60,197 nt of DNA, taken from Acidobacteriota bacterium. Its GTDB lineage: Bacteria; Acidobacteriota; Vicinamibacteria; Vicinamibacterales; UBA8438. The stretch is taken from positions 1 through 60,197 of the forward strand of contig JAGWAH010000018.1 of NCBI GenBank assembly GCA_021296515.1, read 5' to 3'. Below, piece by piece: positions 2,098 through 38,188 of this stretch (position 1 is its first letter; the number at the start of each line of letters is the position of its first letter). The notes beneath the pieces are model-generated. The model saw nothing but the letters and a program-made list of their open reading frames with translations. It did no database searches and was not told the DNA's origin. A program made the position numbers and the translations under genes.

Positions 2098-3204
2098 TTG
2101 TCCAAGCCCTCCACTTCGTCCGACAAGTCGCGCTTTCTCGACGTGCCGATAGAGCCCTTCGAGATCGCGCCGGATGCCCCGGCCGACGAGCTGCTCCGGC
2201 GGATGGAGCGGATCTCGTTCCAGGGACGCAACCTCGCCACCGCTCATCGGATCTGGCAGCGCATGCTGGCCGACGACGAGATCGTGATCTTCCTCGGGGT
2301 GGCCGGCGCGCTGACCGCCGGCGGTCTGCGCCTCGCCATCGCCCGGCTCATCCGCGACCGCGCCGTCGACTGCGTCGTGTCCACCGGTGCCAACCTGTAC
2401 CACGACCTGCACGAGACCCGCGGCCGGAGACACTTCGTCGGCTCGCACCGGGCGGACGACCGCGCGCTGCAGGCGGCGCGCATCGACCGCGTGTACGACA
2501 CCTACGTGGACGAGGACGAGTTCGTCGACAACGACAACTGGATCGCCGCCTTCAGCGCCGAACTCGAGGCCCGGCCGTACACCACGCGGGAGTACCTGCA
2601 TCAACTGGGGCGGCGCTTGTGGAGCGAGACGGGCGGCGACGGCATCCTCACGGCGGCCTATCGTGCGGCGGTCCCTCTGTTCTGCCCCGCGATCGCGGAT
2701 TCGTCCATCGGCATGGGACTCGCCCAGGCCCGGCACGCCGATCCCCGGCACGGACACATCGATGTGGTCGGCGACGTCATCGAATCGACGAACCTGGTCA
2801 TCCGGCGCCCGCGGACCGCATCGATCGTCCTGGGCGGCGGAACCCCGAAGAACTTCATCAACCAGGCGAGCGTGCAGGCCGACTTCTGCCGTCCCGGAGC
2901 CGGCGGACACCGTTACGCGCTGCAGATCATCACCGACGCCCCGCACTTCGGCGGCGCATCCGGATCGACCCTGGACGAGGCGCAGAGCTGGGGCAAGCTG
3001 GCCGTGGACGCCGATCAGGTCACCGTGCACGCCGACGCGACCCTCGCCTTCCCGCTGCTGACCAGCGCCCTGGCGGCGTCGGGCCGCGAGCTGCTCGCCG
3101 CCCGCCGCCCCGCCGCGTTCGCGCTCGGCGGCCGCGCGCTGGTCATCGACGGAGCGCCGGTTCCGGTCGAGGGTTTCGACGGCCTCGGCGATCGGTCGCA
3201 ATAG
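2098..3204 (+). CDS. Deoxyhypusine synthase family protein (probable polyamine-modifying enzyme)
   Basis: 368 aa, family DHS (NAD-dependent transfer of the aminobutyl group of spermidine to a lysine or an amine). Seen: GVAGALTAGGLR near the N-terminus, STGANLYHD, and GGGTPKNFINQ, whose Lys251 matches the position of the active-site lysine of eukaryotic DHS; then the DAPHFGGASGSTLDEAQSWGK stretch expected downstream. Bacteria lack eIF5A, so the usual substrate is absent. Known bacterial relatives include homospermidine synthases. The convergent neighbours aguA and aguB make putrescine, which supports a polyamine role (inference). The chosen start is TTG at 2098, with only a weak ribosome site; a later start is possible. 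mutS ends 25 bp upstream, so the two may be cotranscribed. Confidence 0.88.
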   Translation: MSKPSTSSDKSRFLDVPIEPFEIAPDAPADELLRRMERISFQGRNLATAHRIWQRMLADDEIVIFLGVAGALTAGGLRLAIARLIRDRAVDCVVSTGANLYHDLHETRGRRHFVGSHRADDRALQAARIDRVYDTYVDEDEFVDNDNWIAAFSAELEARPYTTREYLHQLGRRLWSETGGDGILTAAYRAAVPLFCPAIADSSIGMGLAQARHADPRHGHIDVVGDVIESTNLVIRRPRTASIVLGGGTPKNFINQASVQADFCRPGAGGHRYALQIITDAPHFGGASGSTLDEAQSWGKLAVDADQVTVHADATLAFPLLTSALAASGRELLAARRPAAFALGGRALVIDGAPVPVEGFDGLGDRSQ

Positions 3205-3288
3205 CGCCCCGAAACGCCTCGCAGGCTCGGCGCTTCGGCCCATCCCCCCACTCCATGACCTTTGCGCCTCAGCACTTCGCTTCGCTGC

Positions 3289-3308
3289 GTTCTGCGGCGC
3301 AAGCTCCC
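3289..3308 (+). repeat. 20-nt sequence shared with the rho leader
   Basis: The 20-mer GTTCTGCGGCGCAAGCTCCC lies in the 119-bp gap between the convergent ends of the DHS-like gene and aguA. The same 20 bases occur exactly on the minus strand at 21906-21925 in the rho leader. Flanking bases are only loosely alike. The rest of the 3205-3323 gap shows no gene and no clear hairpin with a T-tract. Confidence 0.6.
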
Positions 3309-3323
3309 AGCCGGCCGTGCGGG

Positions 3324-22473: not shown

Positions 22474-24165
22474 GTGTCACGCCACGCGGTGATTCTTGCC
22501 GGCGTTTGCGTCCTGACGTTCTTCGTCGGGCTCGGGCGCCCGGCGCTGACCGACTCCGACGAAGCCTTCTACGCCGAGAGCGCCCGCGAGATGATCGAGC
22601 GGGGCGACTGGCTCACGCCCTACTACAACGGCCAGCCGCGCTTCGAGAAGCCGGTGCTCTACTACTGGCTGGTTGCCGTCACCTACGTGGCGGCGGGACC
22701 CTCTCCCGGCGCGGCGCGGTTCCCTGCCGCGCTGGCCGGCGTCGGCCTGGTACTGGTTACCTTCGCCTGCGCGCGGCGCTGGTACGACGGGTCGACCGCC
22801 CTGCTGGCCGGCCTCATCGGGGCGACCAGCGCGGGCATCGTCGCGATGGCCCGTCAGGCGCTGCCCGATCTGCCCCTTGCCTTCTTCGTGACGCTCGCCG
22901 TCTGGGCGGCGCTCGTCGCCCTGCTTGAGGATCCGCACCGGTCGCCGGGACCGCGCCAGCGCCGCGCCTGGCTGCTCCTGGCCGCGCTGGCCGCAGGCGC
23001 CGCGTTCCTCGTGAAGGGCCCTGTCGGTCCGGCGCTCGCCGCACTGGTCGTGCTACCCCTCGCCGCACTGGACTGGCGGCGGCACGGCCTGCCGTCCCGG
23101 GCGACCCGGGTCGACCTGGCGCTTGCCGCCGCGCTCTTTCTGCTCGTGGCGGCGCCCTGGTACGCCGCGATGGCGATCGAGCACGGCGCCGGGTATCTGG
23201 AGCGGTTCTTCCTTGCCGAGAATCTCGAACGTTACGCCTCCGATCGCTACAACGCGCCGCGGCCGCCGTGGTACTACCTGCCGATAATCGCCGGCGGCCT
23301 GCTTCCGTGGTCCCCGTTCATGCTTCTGTGGGCGGCGGCGGCACGAGAGAGCTGGCGCCGCCGGATCCTCGACCAGCGCGTGCTGCGGCTGGCGGTCTGG
23401 GCGGCGGCGCCGCTGGCCTTCTACACGCTGTCCGTCGGCAAGCAGCCGCGCTACATCCTGCCTCTGCTGGCGCCCCTGGCCATCCTCCTCGCGCGCGCCG
23501 TGACGCGGGCCCTCGAGGGGACACCCGCCAGGCGGCGTGCTCTCGCGACGCTCGGCGCCGCGACGGGCGCCGTGGTCATGGTCATCGGCGGGCTCGTTTA
23601 CCGCGCCCGGCCGCTGTTGGTCGAATGGAACGAGCCGGTCACTCTGATTGTCGCGCTCGCAGTCTTTCTCGCCGGCGGCGCCGTCGCCGCGTTCTCGGTG
23701 GGCGCGTGGCGGCACGGGCCGGACGCAACGGCGCGGGCCGGGGTGATTCCTACGCTCGTCGCCGCCGCCGCGGTGGTCATGGCGGTCGGGGCGCACCTGG
23801 TCGTGCTGGCGTCCCCCGGTCCGTCCCCCGTCGAGCGCATGGCCGCCATGCTCGCGGTCGAGCGCAACGCCGGTGAGCCCTACGGCCGCCACCGGGTGTT
23901 CGACCGCAACCTCGTGTACTACATGCGCACGGCGCACGTGGAGTTGCCCGTGCTGCCGGCGGCGTACGATTTCCTGAGTTCACCCGGGCGGGTGCTGTGC
24001 GTGCTGCGGGCGGAGGACGCCGTGCGGCTCCGACAGGATGGCCTGCGGCTGCAGCGCCTGGCAGAGGTGCGCTATCTGAACACCGGCAGCCTCAACCTGC
24101 GCACCCTGCTCAACCCCGACCCGCAACGCTACCTGCAGCGTGTGGTGCTGGTCGCCAACCGCTAG
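22474..24165 (+). CDS. ArnT/PMT-like membrane glycosyltransferase (GT39/GT83 type)
   Basis: 563 aa from GTG at 22474, chosen from the -10 box just upstream and the start of the first hydrophobic segment. Integral membrane protein with about 11-13 spans. Near the N-terminus: GLGRPALTDSDEAFYAESAREMIERGDWLTPYYNGQPRFEKPVLYYWLVA, the DxDE-type first loop that holds the catalytic acid in ArnT and dolichyl-phosphate-mannose-dependent transferases. Such enzymes move a sugar from a polyprenyl-phosphate donor to lipid A or protein outside the membrane; donor and acceptor are unknown here. The TAG stop is part of the CTAG repeat that follows directly. Confidence 0.88.
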   Translation: MSRHAVILAGVCVLTFFVGLGRPALTDSDEAFYAESAREMIERGDWLTPYYNGQPRFEKPVLYYWLVAVTYVAAGPSPGAARFPAALAGVGLVLVTFACARRWYDGSTALLAGLIGATSAGIVAMARQALPDLPLAFFVTLAVWAALVALLEDPHRSPGPRQRRAWLLLAALAAGAAFLVKGPVGPALAALVVLPLAALDWRRHGLPSRATRVDLALAAALFLLVAAPWYAAMAIEHGAGYLERFFLAENLERYASDRYNAPRPPWYYLPIIAGGLLPWSPFMLLWAAAARESWRRRILDQRVLRLAVWAAAPLAFYTLSVGKQPRYILPLLAPLAILLARAVTRALEGTPARRRALATLGAATGAVVMVIGGLVYRARPLLVEWNEPVTLIVALAVFLAGGAVAAFSVGAWRHGPDATARAGVIPTLVAAAAVVMAVGAHLVVLASPGPSPVERMAAMLAVERNAGEPYGRHRVFDRNLVYYMRTAHVELPVLPAAYDFLSSPGRVLCVLRAEDAVRLRQDGLRLQRLAEVRYLNTGSLNLRTLLNPDPQRYLQRVVLVANR

Positions 24166-24257
24166 CCCGACAATCGTCGCCTGCGGCTCCGATTGCCGCC
24201 CAACCGGGCCTGACTAGCAGTCTACGCCGTTCTACGGCGGCTGGCCCGACCATCGTC
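24161..24257 (+). repeat. CTAG hairpin repeat, copy A (one unit plus partial)
   Basis: Member of a repeat family also at 29168-29257 (inverted) and 37084-37262. The unit begins GCTAGCCCGACA, contains a 29-nt core (CCGATTGCC ... GGGCCTGACTAG) identical in all copies, and ends in a CTAG-bounded hairpin. Here the hairpin has lost about 7 nt of its right arm, so the next unit starts after 79 bp and is cut after 18 nt. It fills the gap between the convergent GT39-type gene, whose TAG stop is in the first CTAG, and coaD. Confidence 0.85.
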
Positions 24258-28835: not shown

Positions 28836-29171
28836 ATGCCCGAACGCAAGCAGATCAATTTCACGATAGTGCCGGACGAACCGAGCGACGTCGCACGCAC
28901 GTACGCGAACTTCTGCGCCATCTCGCACACGCCCTTCGATTTCACCCTCACCTTCTGCGAGGTGCTGCCGCCCTCCGAGACCGAGGTGCGGGAGGCGGAC
29001 GGCGACGAACAGCAGTCGGACGGACCTCGTCAGCTCCGGGCGCCGGTCCGCGCCCGGATCGTCGTGCCGGCGGCGTTCATTCCAAGCCTGATCACCGCGC
29101 TGCAGGAACACGCGCGCGCCTTCAGCGAGGCGCCTCCGAAGGTCGCCTCTCCGAGGGACGCGGTGCACTAG
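28836..29171 (+). CDS. DUF3467 family protein
   Basis: 111 aa. N-terminus RKQINFTIVPDEPSDVARTYANFCAISHTPFDFTLTFCEV is the conserved DUF3467 pattern (small beta-rich protein found across several phyla, function unknown). The second half has APVRARIVVPAAFIPSLITALQEHARAF, also typical; between them an acidic insert (EVREADGDEQQSDGP). Lies 71 bp after lexA. Its TAG stop at 29169-29171 forms the outer CTAG of a repeat hairpin. Confidence 0.85.
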   Translation: MPERKQINFTIVPDEPSDVARTYANFCAISHTPFDFTLTFCEVLPPSETEVREADGDEQQSDGPRQLRAPVRARIVVPAAFIPSLITALQEHARAFSEAPPKVASPRDAVH

Positions 29172-29257
29172 GAGTCTGCGCGGCAAGAGCGGCGTAGACT
29201 CCTAGTCAGGCCCGGTTGGGCGGCAATCGGAGTCGCCGGCGACGATTGTCGGGCGAG
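29168..29257 (-). repeat. CTAG hairpin repeat, copy C (inverted, one unit)
   Basis: Same family as 24161-24257 and 37084-37262 but in the opposite orientation. Hairpin 29168-29205 has arms CTAGGAGTCT / AGACTCCTAG. Compared with copy B (CTAGCAGTCT / AGACTGCTAG) the C-to-G change in one arm is matched by G-to-C in the other, so pairing is kept. The 29-nt core is at 29202-29230, identical to other copies. The outer CTAG supplies the TAG stop of the DUF3467 gene; the zincin gene starts 8 bp beyond the repeat. Confidence 0.87.
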
Positions 29258-36626: not shown

Positions 36627-37088
36627 ATGGCTCGTTCATCATCCCGGCGGCGCGGCGCGTTTCTCGGTTTCTCGGTCGGCGTGCTGGCGGTCATCCTCGC
36701 CGCCGGGCAGATGTCCGATGGATACGCTGCGTTCCAGCGGCGAGGTCCCGACGACGACCCCCGGCTCCGGCTGCGCGCTACGCCGCGCGTGGGGCTCGCT
36801 CCCGCGAGCATTCTCTTCGTCGGAACGCTCGACGGTGGTCCCGACGACAACGAGGAGCTCTACTGCACGACCATCGAGTGGGACTGGGGCGACGACACGT
36901 TGTCGGAGAGCACCCCGGATTGCGAGCCGTTCGAGCCGGGCCGGACCGAGATCCGCCGACGCTTCTCGGTCCGCCACACCTTCGACTACGCCGGTCGCTA
37001 CGAGGTGCGCCTCAATCTGAAGCGCCGGGACGACATCCTCATCTCGGCGCGCACGCGCATCGAGGTGCGCGGCAACCGGTTCCGCTAG
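36627..37088 (+). CDS. Secreted PKD-like domain protein
   Basis: 153 aa. A signal peptide or anchor (FLGFSVGVLAVILAAGQ) follows a basic start. The remainder fits one PKD/Ig-like domain: RLRATPRVGLAPASILFVGTLDGG (typical PKD opening), IEWDWGDDT, then a loop of about 20 residues with a possible disulfide (two Cys: YCTTIEWDW and PDCEPF), and FSVRHTFDYAGRYEVRLNL (the HTFxxxGxYxV strand). Likely a cell-surface or periplasmic binding module. Its TAG stop lies in the first CTAG of the tandem repeat that follows. Confidence 0.78.
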   Translation: MARSSSRRRGAFLGFSVGVLAVILAAGQMSDGYAAFQRRGPDDDPRLRLRATPRVGLAPASILFVGTLDGGPDDNEELYCTTIEWDWGDDTLSESTPDCEPFEPGRTEIRRRFSVRHTFDYAGRYEVRLNLKRRDDILISARTRIEVRGNRFR

Positions 37089-37262
37089 CCCGACACTCGT
37101 CACCGCCGGCGCCGATTGCCGCCCAACCGGGCCTGACTAGCGGTCTACGCCGTTTCTACGGCGCAGACTGCTAGCCCGACACTCGTCACCGCCGGCGCCG
37201 ATTGCCGCCCAACCGGGCCTGACTAGCAGTCTACGCCGTTTCTACGGCGCAGACTGCTAGCC
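37084..37262 (+). repeat. CTAG hairpin repeat, copy B (two 86-bp tandem units plus partial)
   Basis: Two units, 37084-37169 and 37170-37255, differ at one position in the hairpin (G at 37142 versus A at 37228); a third starts at 37256 and stops after 7 nt. Each unit carries the 29-nt core and a 38-nt hairpin (37137-37174 and 37223-37260) with arms CTAGCAGTCTACGCCGT / ACGGCGCAGACTGCTAG around TTCT. The array fills the whole gap between convergent genes: first CTAG holds the PKD gene stop, and the tyrA stop begins 2 bp after the array. It could act as a two-way terminator, though it lacks a T-tract. Confidence 0.9.
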
Positions 37263-37264
37263 GA

Positions 37265-38188
37265 TCACTCTCCCTGGGGCGCACGGCGGCGGGCCGCGAG
37301 TGCGGCCCTCCACCGGGAGGCCGAGTCGAAGATCCGGTCCACCGCCCCACCGTCGGCGAGATGGTCTCGAGCCGCCTGAAGCTCCCGGATCAGCGCGTCG
37401 AGCGCTGTACCAATCTCGTCCGCGTTCGTGGCGCAGATGTCCCGCCAGATGTCCGCCGGGCTCGACGCCAGCCGCGTGGTGTCCGCCAGACCCCGCCCGC
37501 TCAGCGCCAACCCGTCCTCGCCGATGGCATCTCCGACGACATGCATCAGCACGCTGGCGGTGAGTTGCGGCACGTGGCTGAGGAAGGCGAGCAGGCGGTC
37601 ATGGGCGTCGGGGGCCAGCACGTGAGGCGCCGCGCCGAAGCCGGTGACGAACCGGCGCAGCTTCTCGAGCGCTGCGCCATGGTGGTCGTCGGACGGGGTG
37701 AAGAGCCACGGCCGGTCCCGGAACAGGTCCGGACGCGCGTGGTCGATGCCGCCGCGCGGCGCGCCTCCGAGCGGATGTCCGCCGACGAAGGTCAGGCGGG
37801 AAGGCAGCGCGCGCGCCGCTGCGACCAGGTCGCGCTTGGTGCTGCCGACGTCGGTGACGATGGCCGCGCCCCGGACGTGCTCTTCGAGGTCGGCAAGCAG
37901 GGCCAGATTGGTGCGGACGGGAGCGGCCAGCACCACGAGATCGGCTTCCGCCATCACGACCGGATCGTCCGCAGCGACGTCGATGGCGTGGCGCAGCATC
38001 GCGCGCTCGAGCACCGGCTTGTCGTCGACGCCGATCACCAGTCCGGCCGGCCAGGTCTCCCGAATGGCGAGGGCCAGGGACCCGCCAATCAGGCCGAGGC
38101 CGACGATTGCCACCCGATCGAACACCGGCGGGACCGACGATGCCGTTCCCGGCTGTATGACCGGCAGGGTGCGAGGCGTGTCCGCCAT
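37265..38188 (-). CDS. tyrA: Prephenate dehydrogenase
   Basis: 307 aa from the ATG at 38188. Oxidative decarboxylation of prephenate to 4-hydroxyphenylpyruvate (Tyr branch). NAD-binding [17 protein letters not shown], then [48 protein letters not shown] (substrate region) and [17 protein letters not shown] in the helical dimer domain. No fused chorismate mutase or ACT domain; chorismate mutase is a separate gene two places upstream. Last gene of the aromatic supraoperon, 14 bp after the DAHP synthase gene. Confidence 0.94.

Follow-up and report, generated by a model that had tools for sequence, protein, structure and literature searches.

The CTAG-bounded repeat at positions 37085-37260 of the analysed window, a stretch of 60,197 nucleotides from contig JAGWAH010000018.1 of an Acidobacteriota bacterium, is very probably a non-autonomous, MITE-like chimeric element derived from an insertion sequence (IS) of the IS1182 family, and its position at gene ends most probably follows from the supply of CTAG sites. 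We assign this reading a probability of about 0.8.

The unit comprises 86 nt and is built from a CTAG, a 48-nt body ending in CCGATTGCCGCCCAACCGGGCCTGA, an inner CTAG, a 30-nt hairpin and a further CTAG. At 37 kb, two units are arranged in tandem on the + strand with a period of 86 nt. The left border CTAG (37085-37088), in which the upstream + strand gene has its TAG stop, is followed by the body of unit 1 with the conserved core (37089-37136, 48 nt) and by the inner CTAG and hairpin of this unit (37137-37170), in which two IS1182-type terminal repeats stand back to back with one non-pairing stem change (CTAGCGG). The CTAG at 37171-37174 is common to both units, and the body of unit 2 (37175-37222), its inner CTAG and hairpin with perfect CTAGCAG/CTGCTAG arms (37223-37256) and the right border CTAG (37257-37260) complete the array. 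A single unit on the + strand (24162-24239) possesses a hairpin truncated after CTACGGCG, and a single reversed unit is located on the - strand (29168-29257).

The first-pass annotation had described the same element at three loci and in four units with a 29-nt core identical in every copy, and all of these units (24162-24239; 29168-29257 in reverse; 37085-37260) and the identity of their cores were found again. A 20-nt piece of the core matched the window four times, in comparison to 0.01 matches expected from shuffled sequences. It had also been stated that a CTAG of the repeat provides the TAG stop codon of the upstream gene at each locus and that two loci lie between convergent genes. Both statements agree with the predicted genes, the stops of which are located at 24163-24165, 29169-29171 and 37086-37088; the border CTAG 24162-24165 contains the stop of a gene for a PMT-domain protein, and the CTAG 29168-29171 that of a gene for a DUF3467-domain protein. 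Two corrections concern the borders: the 24-kb copy lacks the right half-arm and the right CTAG, and the left border of the 29-kb copy is now CTCG instead of CTAG. The reported difference between CTAGCAG/CTGCTAG and CTAGGAG/CTCCTAG arms is real. In Rfam, no family reached the gathering threshold over positions 36900-37450.

The annotation had proposed a search of the rest of the genome and of related genomes with the core. In the source genome of the window (G000; 3.31 Mb, 158 contigs, 88% complete), the core was detected with up to three mismatches at 85 places, which fall into 71 arrays, and a reversed control gave no match; this count is a lower bound, as contigs often end or have N gaps within copies. 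The unit was also present in all three congeners searched (G001, G002 and G003 with 36, 38 and 20 copies, respectively). Exact-core matches that carried names belonged to MAGs of Vicinamibacterales or Acidobacteria, except for one Arthrobacter contig, in which the match was limited to the 22-mer searched. Outside the family, one stray core match with three mismatches occurred in the order. The element is also retained in the sister genus g4, where its core is altered (GGTTGGTTGGGCGG...). A long variant of the element with an extra body stem (GAACGCGACC...GGTCGCGCTGCGGCC) was observed at five loci (L054, L056, L065, L072 and L207). Going by their titles and abstracts, papers on palindromic repeats in Acidobacteria or Vicinamibacteria describe no such family.

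The mobility of the unit was tested by searching the joined flanks of 11 sites in the three congeners. At C43:16245, G002 possesses a single CTAG (...AACCGGCG-CTAG-GCGTCC...) and G000 the sequence CTAG-82 nt-CTAG. At C74:29168, the empty site GA-CTAG-TGCACC of G002 corresponds to GA-CTCG-82 nt-CTAG-TGCACC in G000. The site at 37085 contains no element in G002 and G003 and an oppositely oriented one in G001, and the site at 24162 holds a decayed, oppositely oriented element in G002 and none in G001. Furthermore, at C87:20401, which adjoins the stop codon of a gene, G001 and G002 carry a different CTAG-bounded element, referred to as element C, in the same place. These comparisons of empty and filled sites therefore indicate that insertions took place independently, that CTAG targets were used repeatedly and that 4 bp were duplicated each time. 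CTAG thus serves as the insertion site and is doubled in the process, and the earlier suggestion of a non-autonomous mobile element targeting CTAG was borne out, with a single CTAG in empty and a double one in filled sites. The target is not strictly CTAG, because the copy at C87:18481 has CTGG on both sides.

Element C is a second CTAG-bounded two-hairpin repeat (CTAGCGCCCCGAAACGCC...GCGGCGCAAGCTCCTAG) with an IS1182-like right end, GAGCTTGCGCCGCAGAA. One copy is located at 3201-3310 on the + strand and begins at a TAG stop; further copies were observed at L281, L036 and L106 and at the G002 and G001 orthologues of C87:20401 of G000.

The hairpin itself points to its source. Seven family genomes were searched for the arm sequence TAGGAGTCTGCGCCGYAGAA, and six of them contained between 91 and 353 occurrences each; in G006, a member of a sister genus, it forms the terminus of an intact IS of approximately 1.58 kb (C1:6667-8248 and several more copies). 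The transposase of this IS scored 320 bits with the NCBIfam IS1182 model NF033551 (cut-off 270). Its terminal inverted repeat GAGTCTGCGCCGCAGAAA and the hairpin arm GAGTCTGCGCCGTAGAAA are identical at 17 of 18 positions; the other arm matches the IS1182 terminus at 11 of 12 positions, and the match runs through the loop on one side. Copies of the IS in G006 have CTAG at both ends (L379, L382, L383 and L396), CTCG at both ends (L319) or CGAG at both ends (L381). The unit shares the type of target duplication with its probable parent IS, as CTAG was found by comparing empty and filled sites and CTAG, CTCG or CGAG in the IS copies. The same terminal repeat was detected beside IS1182-type fragments in the congeners G001 and G002 and in G015. 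In G000, which is 88% complete, an intact cognate IS1182 transposase was not found, only a divergent fragment, and the 86-nt unit is too short to encode a transposase. IS5 relatives had been considered as the CTAG-targeting source; the matching termini belong to an IS of the IS1182 family and not of the IS5/IS427 type.

According to the first-pass annotation, a match to the terminal pair of a known IS would turn the repeat into an ordinary MITE. Matching IS termini do exist in the hairpin module, but the left end of the unit, CCCGACAATCG, has no such repeat and differs from the right end. Its sole similarity to the IS in G015 is CGACAATCGT, which is found there in a subterminal position and may be due to chance. 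Because of this left end, the unit is regarded as chimeric and MITE-like and not as a canonical MITE.

Other repeats of this kind were observed in the family. G006 also possesses a MITE of approximately 114 nt with the same repeat at both ends. A second CTAG-bounded MITE of 156 nt with AGCCCGTGGTGAAA ends (for example L117, L122, L128 and L135; a 255-nt version in L080, L085 and L086) has a terminus that was matched in 25 of 28 family genomes, and its ends match those of IS1182-related elements of G017, the scores of which do not reach the curated cut-off of the family. In the sister genus g4, the core of the window element is nested inside a longer version of the 156-nt MITE.

In the origin proposed here, the hairpin would represent two head-to-head copies of the IS1182 terminal inverted repeat, fused to a body of about 48 nt of uncertain origin. 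An IS1182 transposase would act in trans and insert the unit into CTAG, thereby duplicating 4 bp. Copies might then pile up at gene ends without harm, as CTAG is rare in coding DNA, most non-coding CTAGs of this genus belong to stop codons or to the spaces between genes, and the duplication would keep the stop codon. Tandem units could arise when a new copy enters the border CTAG of an older one. Four observations speak against this origin. The left end CCCGACAATCG does not repeat the right end in inverted form, and the cutting of the whole unit is not accounted for; G000 yielded no intact cognate IS1182 transposase; some copies are located at CTGG rather than CTAG; and insertion into a palindrome would not lead one to expect the orientation bias described below (72:18).

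The position at gene ends was analysed by a census of CTAG outside the elements, which covered 754 kb around copies in the four congeners G000 to G003. Coding DNA contained 43 CTAGs in 682 kb (0.06 per kb), and base composition predicts about 2.8 per kb; in the fetched loci of these genomes, coding CTAG is thus approximately 40-fold below prediction. A further 92 CTAGs of the same 754 kb were located at stop codons or between genes. Gene contexts were counted with a home-made gene caller over the fetched loci, and MAG assemblies break in these repeats; the p-values given here are optimistic, because the copies are related to each other, both inside one genome and across genomes. A stop codon was involved in 57 of 118 elements (48%) and in 38 of 72 free non-coding CTAGs having a gene on either side (53%; p = 0.65), the spacer types of elements and free CTAGs did not differ (p = 0.31), and within predicted genes the elements were depleted (8 of 126 in comparison to 43 of 115 CTAGs; odds ratio 0.11, p = 3e-9). 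The placement at gene ends is therefore ascribed to the choice of a target that is rare in genes, together with the loss of harmful insertions. The position noted by the first-pass annotation is real, and the stop-codon share is at the level of the CTAG supply. Stop-codon placement as a sign of selection was rejected on the basis of this census.

The orientation of the elements relative to genes is strongly one-sided. Between genes of the same direction, the hairpin end faced the 3' end of the upstream gene in a ratio of 54:12 in the four congeners, with the same sign in each, and of 18:6 in G006 (pooled over five genomes 72:18, p = 8e-9). This bias could be due to selection on the mRNA 3' end or to an insertion bias. 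Six such elements are located next to lagging-strand genes in G006, and five of them follow the gene, a number too small to separate transcription from replication. An apparent chromosome-strand bias in G006 was rejected as a listing artefact; sampling of 60 x 20 kb gave 26:11. It is possible that the hairpins play a role in mRNA 3' ends. The bidirectional terminator that had been suggested in the first-pass annotation was not supported, since no T-run follows the hairpin, as required of an intrinsic terminator (TCAGGCC in the sense of the upstream gene, or the flank, stands there), and since the orientation is so one-sided.

A tentative extension, which can be compatible with an IS1182-derived origin, is that the hairpins were taken over after their spread as directional 3'-UTR elements. 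Selection might then keep those copies in one orientation right behind the upstream stop, where the hairpin would affect the stability or termination of mRNA 3' ends; judged from sequence data, we consider such an exaptation rather unlikely, with a probability of about one in four. It is suggested by the pooled orientation bias and by RNA folding, in which the strand transcribed from the upstream gene is more stable than the other one (-59.1 vs -46.3 kcal/mol). Two stem pairs also covary. Among 102 hairpins, Watson-Crick pairing occurred 65 times at pair 2 of the border tetranucleotides (45.0 in shuffles, p < 2e-4), and the same applied to the base next to the tetranucleotide (65 vs 48.5, p < 2e-4); the neighbouring stem pair was not above shuffles. 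The earlier claim of selection on the structure is thereby supported only in part, as mismatched stems (C:C and A:C) are frequent, with C:C at the position highlighted in the first-pass annotation in 18 of 55 hairpins of G000. Covariation is also no proof of a selected structure, because shared ancestry or hairpin-templated repair could produce the same pattern. The missing T-run, the match of stop-codon placement to the CTAG supply and the weak wobble asymmetry between the strands (58 vs 86 cells) likewise speak against exaptation.

It is improbable that the unit is instead a REP/BIME-like repeat with CTAG as its hairpin-foot tetranucleotide, mobilized in single-stranded form by a RAYT or an IS200/IS605-type HUH transposase. 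Such an origin would fit the two hairpin regions, the lack of inverted termini of the whole unit, the orientation bias and the covariation of the inner tetranucleotide with the right border (CTAG/CTAG 34, CCAG/CTGG 20, CTGG/CCAG 6). However, Y1_Tnp (PF01797) gave no matches in G000, G001 and G002, of which the latter two are 99% complete, and a single truncated IS200-like gene was found in G003 beside an IS110-like gene. Moreover, the hairpin arms match the ends of a DDE transposon, and the tag reads CTAG, or more rarely CTGG or CCAG, instead of GTAG or CGTC. An inner CTAG acting as an IS605-like guide became unnecessary once the hairpin was recognized as a pair of IS ends.

Even less probable is an IS630/Tc1-mariner MITE inserted at the TA within CTAG. 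IS630 prefers the TA in 5'-CTAG-3' (Tenzen & Ohtsubo 1991, as cited in PMC2170065), and copies of this family in G001, G003 and G006 are located in CTAG with TA duplication, one of them at an element C border and one between two MITEs sharing the hairpin ends studied here. Nevertheless, the termini of the IS630 elements in these genomes are GTGGTCCGTCAC and not GAGTCTGCGCCG, the 4-bp duplications of the IS whose termini do match include CTCG and CGAG, which contain no TA, and G000 has no DDE_3 match. IS630-family loci in CTAG were observed at L269, L275, L281, L285, L272, L273 and L282. An IS5/IS427-type MITE was rejected, as 27 of 28 family genomes lack DUF4096 (PF13340), and general DDE_Tnp_1 loci, which were tested as movers, were rejected or downgraded.

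The IS1182-derived origin would describe a route by which a transposon colonizes gene ends harmlessly, using a tetranucleotide that survives mainly in stops and whose duplication restores the stop. At least two kinds of CTAG-bounded repeats in this family of Acidobacteriota are tied to elements of the IS1182 type. The orientation bias might represent a case of transposon debris becoming an mRNA 3'-end structure.

Among known systems, MITEPye1 of Paracoccus yeei (PMC11578231) is likewise a short, non-autonomous and mostly intergenic element with IS1182-family termini and a long stem-loop. In contrast to the unit described here, it carries 18-bp repeats at both ends and occurs in one to three chromosomal copies, whereas the unit has repeats in its right module only, a fused body, tandem arrays and approximately 85 copies. 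IS1272 and TnSha1 of the IS1182 family (PMC4923244) also prefer palindromic sites, in many cases the transcription terminators that close genes; however, IS1272 uses hairpin targets without sequence preference, with partial deletion of the target and no duplication, and the unit a CTAG-like target with a 4-bp duplication. The PATEs of Haloquadratum (PMC3119063) are similar as mobile repeats without a transposase and with near-terminal palindromes, but they derive from IS605-type elements and cause no target duplication. REP and BIME sequences (PMC3733652) share with the unit the short palindromic intergenic form, the tetranucleotide at the hairpin foot and the tandem arrays. Their tags are GTAG or CGTC; the tag is CTAG in our case, no RAYT was found in three carrier genomes, and the hairpin arms match an IS1182 terminus.
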